Shown here: in pieces, positions 2,177 through 31,520 of the stretch
How the letters are laid out: every line of letters starts with the position of its first letter
Position numbering within the stretch: the first letter of the stretch is position 1
From: Chloroflexota bacterium
GTDB lineage: Bacteria > Chloroflexota > Dehalococcoidia > UBA2979
Direction of reading: 5' to 3'
Length of the DNA stretch: 35,665 nucleotides
NCBI GenBank assembly: GCA_009839925.1
Contig: VXOS01000059.1
Span: forward strand, 1 to 35,665
Translations under genes and position numbers: made by a program
Notes under the pieces: generated by a model
What the model saw: the letters and a program-made list of their open reading frames with translations, nothing else
Database searches by the model: none
What the model was told of the DNA's origin: nothing

Positions 2177-2247
2177 CGCGCCCCAGCGCCACATTCCCCT
2201 TCGAGCACGCCCCCTCCGCGGCGTACACACGCGGCGAGGGGGCCCGC

Positions 2248-2916
2248 ATGGCCATCGACCTGACGGACCGCTACTTCGCGACGGAGCTTATGCGCGGCGG
2301 GATGGCGCGCTGGAAGCTGGACCGCGATGCGTGGCCCTTGCGTGCGATCGTGCTGCACCACGCGGCGGGCTGGTACGGCCCGCCACTCGGCGCGGACGCC
2401 TCCCGCCGCGAGGAGGAGCAACGCATCCGCTCGCTGGCGCGCGACCACCACGCGCGCTTCGGCATCGGACCCGGCTACCACTACGTCGCCTTCCCCAGCG
2501 GGCGGCTCTACGCCGTCGGCAAGGCCGGAACCCACCGCGCGCACACGAAGGGGCGAAACCCGAAGACCGGCGTGCGCTGGAACATCGAGGCGATCGGCGT
2601 CTGTGCCCTCGGCGATTACGAGCGCACGGGCAGGGACGAGCCGACACCCGGCCTGCGCGAGGCAATCGAGGAAGCCGTCGAGGAGATCCGCGGCTTCCGC
2701 TTCACCTTGCCGGGCGCTCCGGTCTTCGGGCACGGCATGACGCCGACGGTGAACACCTCGGGTGACCCGTTGCCTCAGGCGACATCCTGTCCCGGCCGGC
2801 GACTGATCCCGCTGCTCGCCGAACTCAACCGCCCGGCGGCGCCGGACGTGAACGGGGAGTTGGCGGCGATTCGCGCCGCCGCCGAGGCGATCGAGCGCAA
2901 GCTGCAGGCCGCGTAG
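2248..2916 (+). CDS. N-acetylmuramoyl-L-alanine amidase domain protein (Amidase_2/PGRP fold)
   Basis: 222 residues from ATG. The domain at about residues 30-190 matches the zinc-dependent Amidase_2 family, which cleaves the amide between N-acetylmuramic acid and L-alanine in peptidoglycan. The expected zinc ligands are visible: His37/His38 in the VLHH strand, His162 in the FGHG turn, and Cys181 in the TSCPG motif. A GYHYV strand near residue 77 and a RAHTKGRN loop near residue 97 fit the substrate cleft. No signal peptide is evident, so it may act in the cytoplasm (recycling), be exported by another route, or be phage-derived. The last 30 residues form a charged helix. It converges with the downstream minus-strand gene across 17 bases. 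Confidence 0.8.
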   Translation: MAIDLTDRYFATELMRGGMARWKLDRDAWPLRAIVLHHAAGWYGPPLGADASRREEEQRIRSLARDHHARFGIGPGYHYVAFPSGRLYAVGKAGTHRAHTKGRNPKTGVRWNIEAIGVCALGDYERTGRDEPTPGLREAIEEAVEEIRGFRFTLPGAPVFGHGMTPTVNTSGDPLPQATSCPGRRLIPLLAELNRPAAPDVNGELAAIRAAAEAIERKLQAA

Positions 2917-2933
2917 CGAATTCTCCGAGGCGG

Positions 2934-4580
2934 CTACTCGCGCTGCATCATCGTCGAGTAACCGCCGAACGGGACCGTGCTGGCCCGCGCGTGCTCGTCG
3001 GCGACGACGTGCACGCAGGCGGGCTTGCCGCTGGCGAAGGCGCGCTCGATGGCCGGGCGGATCTCCTCCGGCTTCATGACCAGTTCGCCGTAGCCGCCCA
3101 GCGCCTCGACAACGTCGTGGTAGCGCTGAGACTGTCCGAGGCTGCGGCCCGGCGTGGTGTTCGGGCCGCCGGTCCAGCCGCCGTTGTTGTTGATCACGGC
3201 CACGATCGGCAGGTCGTGCCGCACCATCGTGTCGAACTCCTGCACGTTCATCAGGAACGAGCCGTCGCCGATGAAGGCGACCACCTGGCGGCCCGGCGCC
3301 GCGGCCTTCGCGCCCATCGCGAAGGGGATACCCGTGCCCATGCAGCCGTTCGGTCCGGAGTTGAGCCGGCCGCCCTCGGCGAACGCGGGGATCCACTGCC
3401 GGCCGAAGTTCAGCGTCTCCATGCCGTCGATGCAGATGATCGCGTCGCGCTCGACCGTGTTCACGATCTCGTTCGCGATGCGCAGCGGATGGATCGGCGT
3501 CGCATCGGACTCGGCCATCTCGAGCGTCCGCTGACGCCTCGAGTGGTCGCTCTCGCCGAGGCGGGCGATCCAGTCCTGCGAGCCCTGCAGGCCGACCTCC
3601 TTCGCCTTGTCGGTCAGCGCGCGCAGGGACACCTTCGCGTCGGCGACGATGCCGAGCTCGATGGGTCGGTTATGGCCGAGCTCCGTCGAGTCGGTGTCGA
3701 TCTGGATCACCTTCACGTCCTCGGCGAAGCGAGGCGGGTGCCCGAACGAGATGATGAAGTTGAAGCGCGTCCCCACGACGAGGATCGCGTCCGCCTCGCG
3801 GAAGGCCTGCCCGCGTGAGGCGAGGAACGCCAGATCGTGATCCTCGGGGACCACGCCGCGTCCGAGCGGCGTCGTGTAGAAGGGGATGCGCGCCGTGTCG
3901 ATGAACTCGCGCAGCTCCGCGGCGGCGTCGGACCAGAAGACGCCGCTCCCGCTGAGGACGAGCGGGCGCTCGGCCTCGGAGAGGATCTCGATCGCCCGTT
4001 CGATCGAGCCCTCGTCCGGCGCGGGGCGGGCCGGCCGCTGGCCGCCGGGCGGGAACCACACCCCGGAGTCGTCGACCCGCTCGTAGAGCGCGTCACCGGG
4101 CAGATCGAGGTAGGTCGGGCCGGGCTTCGGGCCCTGCGCCTTGCGCATCGCCATGTTGAAGTACTCGGCCATGCGGTCGGCGTGGTGGACGCGCGCGGCC
4201 CAGCGCGTGACCGGCTTCGCCATCGTGAGCTGGTCGTACTCCTGGAAGGCGTCGCTGTCGAAGGCGCGCAGCGCCGCCGCGCCGCCGAGGGCCACCATCG
4301 GGACGCCGTCGAGGTAGGCGTTGGCGACGCCGGTGAGCAGGTTGGTGGTCGCCGGCCCGGAGGCGGCAAGGCAGATGCCGGGCGATCGCTTGACGCGCGC
4401 GTAGCCGTGGGCGGCCATCGCGGCGCCCTGCTCGTGGCGGCAGTCGATCGTGCGGATGCCGAAGTCGCCGGCGAACCCGGCGGTCTCGATGATGGGGCCG
4501 CCCATCAGGTAGAAGAGGTCCTCGACCCCCTCCTCGCGCATCTGACGCGCAAGCAGTTCCGATCCAGAGTTCTCGGCCAT
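2934..4580 (-). CDS. Thiamine-pyrophosphate-dependent enzyme (acetolactate synthase / 2-hydroxyacyl-CoA lyase / oxalyl-CoA decarboxylase superfamily)
   Basis: 548 residues, the normal length for this family. The N-terminal pyrimidine-binding domain holds the catalytic glutamate Glu50 in the CRHEQGAAMAAHGYAR motif. A central Rossmann-like domain spans about 190-330. The C-terminal diphosphate-binding domain has the GDGSF...NNNGG magnesium/TPP motif (about 440-470). These enzymes cleave or make C-C bonds next to a carbonyl through a TPP carbanion. The substrate cannot be read from sequence: acetolactate synthase normally has a regulatory subunit gene beside it and none is here. The CoA-transferase two genes upstream makes an acyl-CoA lyase or decarboxylase plausible. 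The ATG start follows an AGGGAGGTG-like ribosome-binding site. Confidence 0.8.
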   Translation of the reverse strand: MAENSGSELLARQMREEGVEDLFYLMGGPIIETAGFAGDFGIRTIDCRHEQGAAMAAHGYARVKRSPGICLAASGPATTNLLTGVANAYLDGVPMVALGGAAALRAFDSDAFQEYDQLTMAKPVTRWAARVHHADRMAEYFNMAMRKAQGPKPGPTYLDLPGDALYERVDDSGVWFPPGGQRPARPAPDEGSIERAIEILSEAERPLVLSGSGVFWSDAAAELREFIDTARIPFYTTPLGRGVVPEDHDLAFLASRGQAFREADAILVVGTRFNFIISFGHPPRFAEDVKVIQIDTDSTELGHNRPIELGIVADAKVSLRALTDKAKEVGLQGSQDWIARLGESDHSRRQRTLEMAESDATPIHPLRIANEIVNTVERDAIICIDGMETLNFGRQWIPAFAEGGRLNSGPNGCMGTGIPFAMGAKAAAPGRQVVAFIGDGSFLMNVQEFDTMVRHDLPIVAVINNNGGWTGGPNTTPGRSLGQSQRYHDVVEALGGYGELVMKPEEIRPAIERAFASGKPACVHVVADEHARASTVPFGGYSTMMQRE

Positions 4581-30644: not shown

Positions 30645-30683
30645 GGCGCGCTCGCTGACAGCGCCGGGTCGCTGTAACGTGGA

Positions 30684-30742
30684 CCACCCCTGTCGCTTCG
30701 GCGGCAGGGCCGAGACCGCCCTCGTGGCGGTCTCTGTCTTTG
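30684..30742 (+). ncRNA. Structured RNA repeat, copy 1, upstream of the NYN gene
   Basis: A 59-base element differing from copy 2 at only four positions. Hairpin A pairs 30688-30696 with 30701-30709 (9 bp with one G-U) around a UUCG tetraloop closed by C-G. Hairpin B pairs 30712-30720 with 30726-30734 (9 perfect base pairs, GAGACCGCC/GGCGGTCTC, loop CTCGT) and is followed by TGTCTTTG, a weak terminator-like tail. Whether it is transcribed separately is not known; a clear promoter was not found for this copy. Confidence 0.6.
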
Positions 30743-30781
30743 CGACGCTCGTTGGCGCGGAGCCCGCAGACGCCAGGCCAC

Positions 30782-30810
30782 TTGACGGGGCAAGGCTGCA
30801 GCAGTAGCAT
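30782..30810 (+). promoter_or_regulatory. Promoter of structured RNA copy 2 and the NYN gene
   Basis: TTGACG (30782-30787) and TAGCAT (30805-30810) are separated by exactly 17 bases. A start site seven or eight bases downstream would coincide with the first base of the second RNA repeat. Confidence 0.6.
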
Positions 30811-30817
30811 CTTTGTG

Positions 30818-30876
30818 CCACCCCTATCGCTTCGCCGGTAGGGTCGAGACCGCCCTCGTGGCGGTCTCTGTCTTTG
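30818..30876 (+). ncRNA. Structured RNA repeat, copy 2, immediately before the NYN gene
   Basis: A 59-base element like copy 1. Hairpin A pairs 30822-30829 with 30836-30843 (one G-U); hairpin B pairs 30846-30854 with 30860-30868 and is identical to copy 1. Of the four differences, two (G to A and C to T) occur at paired positions 30826 and 30839 (30692 and 30705 in copy 1), turning a G-C pair into A-U, which supports selection on RNA structure. Bases 30819-30825 (CACCCCT) are complementary to 30880-30886 (AGGGGTG), the NYN gene's ribosome-binding/start region. Confidence 0.6.
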
Positions 30877-30889
30877 TGCAGGGGTGCCG

Positions 30890-31520
30890 GTGATCACCAA
30901 CGTCTACATCGACGGCTTCAACCTCTACTACCGCGCCCTCAAGGACGGCCCGTTCAGGTGGCTGGACCTGCGAAAGCTCGCCGCTATCCTCTTCCCGCAC
31001 GATGACATTCGCACGATCTCGTACTTCACCGCTCGCCTGGACACACGCGCGGGGAATCCCGCTCAACCGCAGAGGCAGCAGGCGCATCTGAGGGCCCTGG
31101 CGACACTGCCAAACCTCGAGATCCACTACGGAGCGTTCCGATCCGGCATCAAGCGCCGCCCTCTGGCCGAGCCGGTGCGCGGGCTCCCGGCCTACGTGCG
31201 TGTCAGGGACTCGGAAGAGAAGGGGTCGGACGTGAACCTTGCCACCCGCCTGCTCGTGGATGGCTTCAACGGCGAGTACGAGCAGGCGGTCGTCGTGTCC
31301 AACGACGCCGACTTCGCCGGCGCGATGCGCTACGTGCGGGACGGCCTCGGCCTGCGCGTGACGCTCGTCAATCCCGACGCACGAACCAGCAGCCCCGCGG
31401 GCACTCGCGGGCGCCGCCACCTACGTGAAGCGCCTCTGGAAGAGCCATCTGCGGCGCAGCCTGCTCCCCGACACGCTGACCGACGAGGTCGGCAACATCA
31501 CGAAGCCACGCGGCTGGTAA
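30890..31520 (+). pseudogene. NYN-domain (LabA/DUF88-like, PIN-fold) RNase, frameshifted near the 3' end
   Basis: From a GTG at 30890 with AGGGG five bases ahead (alternative GTG 30884). The frame encodes the NYN domain: YIDGFNLYY with the first catalytic Asp, then EKGSDVNLA and VVSNDADF, giving the acidic residues of this PIN-like metal-dependent nuclease family. After VNPD the frame goes out of phase: the family's C-terminal block (ALAGAATYVKRLW, then LLPDTLTDEVGNITKPRGW) continues in the next frame and stops at 31518-31520. Removing one C from the CCCC run at 31393-31396 restores a 209-residue protein. It could be a real inactivating mutation, a programmed slip or a sequencing error. The uncorrected frame runs through into the thiolase gene. 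Confidence 0.75.

Follow-up and report, generated by a model that had tools for sequence, protein, structure and literature searches.

What a pair of structured RNA elements does for the nuclease gene directly behind it is the question raised by one locus of the window, the 35,665-nt stretch of Chloroflexota DNA analysed here. The preliminary description of this locus, made from the sequence alone, had left two branches open, an RNA-toxin-like cassette and an autoregulated one. The features of the locus are these:

30684..30742, + strand: RNA element copy 1, with hairpin A at 30688-30709, hairpin B at 30712-30734 and a U-rich tail (covariance-model match 30682-30744, 73 bits)
30782..30810, + strand: sigma-70-like promoter TTGACG-17-TAGCAT preceding copy 2, read from the sequence (score 9/12)
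30818..30876, + strand: RNA element copy 2, with hairpin A at 30822-30843, hairpin B at 30846-30868 and a U-rich tail (covariance-model match 30816-30878, 67 bits)
30880..30884, + strand: possible ribosome-binding site AGGGG for a GTG start at 30890, inferred from the sequence
30884..31520, + strand: NYN-domain nuclease gene of the HEC-09 family (GTG start at 30884 or 30890; TAA at 31518-31520)

Sequence comparison agrees with the earlier account that the two elements are each 59 nt long, start 134 nt apart and differ at four positions (93% identity). The hairpin A and 9-bp hairpin B described for each copy are likewise supported, with folding energies of -35.6 kcal/mol for copy 1 and -29.6 kcal/mol for copy 2 (each folded alone), z-scores of -5.1 and -5.2, respectively, and none of 200 shuffled sequences folding equally well. 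Two of the four differences, G30692 to A and C30705 to T, constitute one compensated pair that converts G-C to A-U and so preserves the pairing of hairpin A, as had been claimed; a third, G30701 to C, disrupts the base pair closing the loop of hairpin A in copy 2, and the fourth lies in the linker. The promoter proposed for the second element is present, its TTGACG (30782-30787) and TAGCAT (30805-30810) boxes separated by a 17-nt spacer and ending 5 nt before the model match of copy 2. Scoring of promoter sites in front of copy 1 found no convincing promoter (6/12 matches). The U-rich tail of the window element is weak as a terminator, as it is in many other loci.

The gene behind these repeats had been assigned an NYN domain, and profile searches confirm it, with matches to Pfam NYN (E 2.6e-9) and to the PADLOC model HEC-09 (E 3e-30); the acidic active-site residues are present. 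Its reading frame is broken at about 31390-31404, with the conserved C-terminal end (about 40 codons) continuing in another frame. The relatives are intact, unlike the frameshifted window copy, which may reflect decay or an assembly error. A second NYN gene of the same genome (C3) is intact and 41% identical to that of the window, and it too is preceded by a two-hairpin RNA of the same kind, of quite different sequence. All 51 relatives tested match both HEC-09 and Pfam NYN (51/51 each). In an AlphaFold2 model of one of these proteins (L163), computed with 50 relatives as input (pLDDT 96.5), the closest solved structures are VPA0982 (Z 17.1) and the NYN domain of MARF1 (Z 16.3-16.7), followed at a distance by ExoIX (Z 9.3); solved relatives sought by sequence amounted to VPA0982 alone, at E 0.58. 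Five acidic residues (D8, E110, D114, D139 and D141) are invariant and fit an NYN/PIN active site; RNA cleavage is an inference.

Whether the RNA itself is under selection, as the preliminary description had suggested, can be judged from its variation among relatives. In a consensus of 25 elements lying 5' of NYN genes and aligned on sequence alone, both sides change in 17/18 pairs, and covariation exceeds that of all 500 shuffles and all slid controls; 18/18 pairs covary in an alignment of 112 elements, and 17/18 in an independent cross-phylum set whose loci were chosen by the NYN protein. A search of 196 related genomes with the covariance model R1 returned about 42 strong matches that are separate from background and mostly adjoin independently found NYN genes. 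A broader sample of 301 genomes from the phylum contains 49 with R1 matches, and NYN homology is found near 53 of the 80 R1 sites examined in the phylum; at 51 of these 53 the NYN gene lies directly downstream on the same strand, its start mostly no more than about 30 nt away. The E-values of R1 are optimistic, since an rplS-trmD terminator (L342) scores 46 bits. A search of this kind had been set as the test of the earlier proposal, and its outcome, with matches concentrated beside NYN genes and many further compensatory changes, supports that proposal.

The RNA does not belong to a known Rfam family. No match at gathering score was obtained for the window element or the loci scanned against Rfam 15, including abiF and DUF3800-I to XI, and the names that appear below threshold (sbcD, P9) fall far short of that score. 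Nor did the literature search find a paper on an NYN-linked RNA or on HEC-09 function, with the qualification that preprints were outside its scope and that the motifs of Weinberg 2017 were compared only through Rfam. NYN relatives below about 40% identity mostly have no R1 match, and several of them show, by inspection and without statistics, two hairpins and a U-run before the start. Among distant NYN genes on viral contigs (L263, L270, L274, L278, L283, L291, L294, L298, L308, L311 and L315; about 25-44% identity), two hairpins, often with a U-run, likewise precede the start in differing sequences; these could represent additional RNA families of this type. The two-hairpin RNA of the present loci is real, under selection for its structure and tied to one NYN nuclease subfamily; that it is transcribed independently rests on sequence criteria.

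The strength of that tie is best seen when loci are chosen without reference to the RNA. GTDB genomes scanned by the NYN protein alone yielded at least 568 relatives, and in the best 80 of these R1 detects the RNA no more than 80 nt from the nuclease in every case (80/80), so that no nuclease without RNA was seen among them. These 80 loci span at least 12 phyla, their taxa including Chloroflexota, Actinomycetota, Pseudomonadota, Acidobacteriota, Armatimonadota, Planctomycetota, Gemmatimonadota, Bacteroidota, Rhodothermota, Spirochaetota, Verrucomicrobiota, Myxococcota, Latescibacterota and Eremiobacterota. The RNA is upstream on the same strand in 62 loci, convergent at the 3' end of the nuclease gene in 17 (16 of them in Actinobacteria) and divergent in one; L340 is a second divergent case, such layouts occurring in some Acidobacteria. 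Yet another arrangement is observed at L082 (G134:C182:3620-4369), where an RNA with a promoter-like site lies about 190 nt downstream of the NYN gene on the same strand. When 51 NYN proteins are placed on a tree, 12 of 13 convergent loci fall into one weakly supported actinobacterial group; elsewhere host phyla are mixed, a betaproteobacterium grouping with Acidobacteriaceae at 100/98, for example. Because of this mixing, the tree suggests that the nuclease gene has spread by horizontal transfer. In Proteobacteria the distribution is patchy, with an RNA match in only 5/299 genomes.

These data bear on the simplest explanation, that the elements are ordinary intrinsic terminators or chance hairpins beside a gene. 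Hairpin B with its U-rich tail does resemble an intrinsic terminator, and the model matched one such in L342, but conservation extends to the first hairpin, the linker and the tail, and a promoter stands directly in front. Together with the covariation and the 80/80 association across phyla, this leaves the explanation barely tenable, and the possibility that the elements act only as terminators, which had been named as refuting the proposal, is rejected.

The autoregulated branch of the preliminary description, in which the hairpins would serve only as cis control of the nuclease mRNA by autoregulation or attenuation, deserves closer attention because the element shares the strand of the nuclease gene in the window and most phyla, with about 10 nt between its end and the start codon. 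Such a 5' leader is difficult to reconcile with the 17/80 convergent and two divergent loci, and with promoters of the RNA's own. When 8 or more of 12 matches are taken as a promoter-like site, 71/109 elements of the Chloroflexota set have one, compared with about 8/109 expected; in the cross-phylum set such a site lies a few nt before the 5' edge of the RNA in 68/79 elements (54/61 in same-strand and 14/18 in opposite-strand loci). Tandem copies often have one promoter each, and orphan copies of the RNA carry promoters as well. Because an own promoter is usual in both main orientations, the RNA is, on this evidence from predicted sites, an independent small RNA gene and cannot be a leader only. 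Of the two branches, then, the RNA-toxin-like one is favored and the autoregulated one is not, given the convergent loci of Actinobacteria, the divergent loci of some Acidobacteria and the usual presence of an own promoter; as a general role the 5' leader is refuted and retains very little credence, although it may coexist with the role preferred below.

The settings in which the RNA and nuclease occur together are often mobile. Mobilizable 4.6-kb plasmids of E. coli, Salmonella and Klebsiella carry tandem hairpin units and a perfect terminator before the NYN gene; the six that were read have 4 or 5 units with a period of 33/29, and unit number varies by one between plasmids otherwise at least 96% identical. 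A terminator between RNA and nuclease gene is clear on the enterobacterial plasmids. Most loci have a single RNA unit, with two copies in the window and some others; on a 3.46-kb plasmid of E. coli and Serratia, folding indicates two units, one of which is a model match. The RNA is upstream of the NYN gene on a Leptospira plasmid and convergent with it on an arthrobacterial plasmid and in an M. abscessus prophage, where the module sits between integrase and immunity repressor. Among viral contigs with NYN relatives, 29/75 have a model match. By PADLOC and Pfam annotation, the module is also embedded in type I restriction operons (L224, L239, L190, L237, L171 and others) and in Hma operons (L181, L191). 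In L191 (about 2222-3651), the RNA-NYN pair is preceded directly by a truncated HmaB start and followed by a full HmaB gene, an arrangement that resembles insertion of the module into the Hma operon together with a duplication.

Judged by anatomy, the best reading of these observations is a mobile, defence-associated two-component module that functions in the manner of a type III toxin-antitoxin system, to which a probability of roughly two in three may be given, toxicity and neutralisation being inferred. The two-hairpin RNA of about 60 nt would be transcribed independently from its own promoter and would act in trans, either singly or in tandem, binding the neighbouring NYN-fold endoribonuclease and restraining it; the nuclease would probably also trim the RNA. 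In the common layout, nuclease mRNA would arise by read-through past the second hairpin or terminator, so that the RNA would be in excess. If the short-lived RNA were to disappear, as on a shutdown of transcription by a phage or a failed restriction system, the nuclease would be set loose on RNA. Four steps of this scheme are inferred, namely that the nuclease cleaves RNA, that it is toxic, that the RNA neutralises it and that phage attack releases it, and the substrate or inhibitor role that the preliminary description had allowed for the RNA remains an inference without binding, cleavage or toxicity data.

Covariation of the RNA, constant pairing in three orientations, promoter-like sites, the AbiF/RCd22 precedent described below, plasmid arrays with a terminator, carriage by plasmids and prophages, embedding in defence operons, the NYN/PIN ribonuclease fold and its invariant acidic residues all speak for the toxin-antitoxin reading, as does the contrast between common orphan RNAs and a nuclease never seen without RNA among the 80 loci. 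Against it stand the prevalence of one RNA unit with no array, the weak terminator tail in many loci and an actinobacterial layout unlike that of type III systems. Orphan RNAs, moreover, are in part false positives of the model (L342), and the contrast may also stem from the small size of the RNA, which deletions would spare more readily than a gene.

Any partnership of an RNA with a protein would account for constant adjacency regardless of orientation, and a place within defence operons suits an effector; the small RNA could be a cofactor or guide that activates or directs the NYN protein within a ribonucleoprotein effector rather than an inhibitor. This alternative appears unlikely, as the RNA has no variable guide segment, its stem variation being mainly compensatory, and orphan RNAs and RNAs before broken nucleases have no obvious use as cofactors. 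The nuclease might instead be a dedicated maturation enzyme and the small RNA its product, acting elsewhere and not as an antidote. A precedent exists in the CRISPR-associated NYN of B. fragilis, a Mn-dependent single-stranded RNase that trims crRNA (PMC11346440), but the patchy, mobile and defence-linked distribution, the multi-copy plasmid arrays and the absence of a third conserved gene, none having been found when neighbouring genes of the loci were compared, make this more doubtful still.

The toxin-antitoxin reading invites comparison with ToxIN/AbiQ, CptIN and TenpIN (PMC8860590, PMC4627078), which resemble the enterobacterial plasmid copies in their order of promoter, tandem RNA repeats, terminator and nuclease gene, in variable repeat number and in plasmid and phage carriage. 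The plasmid copies satisfy all four criteria of layout applied to ToxIN (PMC8860590), their promoter having been recognised only by eye. The ToxN fold is not found; the predicted fold is NYN/PIN, nearest to VPA0982 and MARF1, and two plain hairpins stand in place of the pseudoknot described for that group. Loci here also differ in often having a single unit and convergent or divergent layouts, and inhibition is inferred. Because the protein fold, as modelled, differs, membership in the ToxIN superfamily fails, while the comparison "works like" ToxIN stands.

The closest proven precedent is AbiF with RCd22 (abiF motif, RF03085), in which a prophage-borne RNA with its own promoter and terminator, its motif duplicated, lies just upstream of a nuclease-like toxin gene and neutralises AbiF by direct binding (PMC12373285). 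AbiF belongs to another protein family (Abi_2, related to Cas13), and its RNA is different, with no Rfam match of the present element to the abiF motif. The DUF3800 RNA motifs (DUF3800-I, DUF3800-IX and others) likewise are structured RNAs adjoining a nuclease-like gene of unknown role, but the element matches none of them at any reported threshold and has NYN as its partner nearly everywhere. HEC-09 (Hma-embedded candidate 9 of PADLOC) is the same protein family as the nuclease here, modelled as a protein alone with no RNA partner and no function given. The B. fragilis enzyme (PMC11346440) shares an NYN fold, metal-dependent ribonuclease action on a small RNA and a defence setting; unlike the present nuclease, it is not tied to the RNA described here or proposed as a toxin with an RNA antidote. 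With the present analysis, a widespread family of structured RNA that is apparently unlisted (absent from Rfam 15) comes to light, and HEC-09, an unexplained candidate defence gene, turns from a lone nuclease into one half of a testable RNA-protein pair. If the toxin-antitoxin reading is true, NYN/PIN nucleases join ToxN and AbiF as partners of RNA antitoxins, a question made directly testable by the natural copies on 3.5-4.6-kb E. coli plasmids.

The partner nuclease may not be fixed. At L071 (G003:C79:57300-60500), in the window's genus, two near-identical RNA copies, nearly identical to the window's pair, precede an intact DUF3800 gene rather than an NYN gene. At L073 (G100:C3), a broken DUF3800 gene and a known DUF3800-IX RNA (1863-1932, - strand; RF02968, E 1e-12) adjoin one copy of the two-hairpin RNA. 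An RNase H fold has been predicted for DUF3800 (PMC10910872). Exchange of NYN for DUF3800 is possible on this basis, with one intact case only, a lead and not a rule. A broader reading can be offered only tentatively, at somewhat less than even odds. It takes the RNA as a new class of antitoxin found across phyla, with NYN in most loci and DUF3800 in at least one as exchangeable partners; bacteria, plasmids and prophages would employ it as an alarm against transcription shutdown that protects restriction systems and mobile elements.

RNA without an intact nuclease is common, both as orphan copies and as copies before broken NYN genes, and the weak orphan matches include false ones such as L342. 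Orphan RNAs near hflX (L118, L130, L136) and hisF (L135, L144) recur at matching positions in several genomes within one genus, in some cases with a promoter-like site, and may be orphan antidotes or small RNAs that have acquired another function. At L142 and L149, RNA-like elements lacking promoter-like sites precede a small two-gene unit that resembles a DUF433/DUF5615-type pair.
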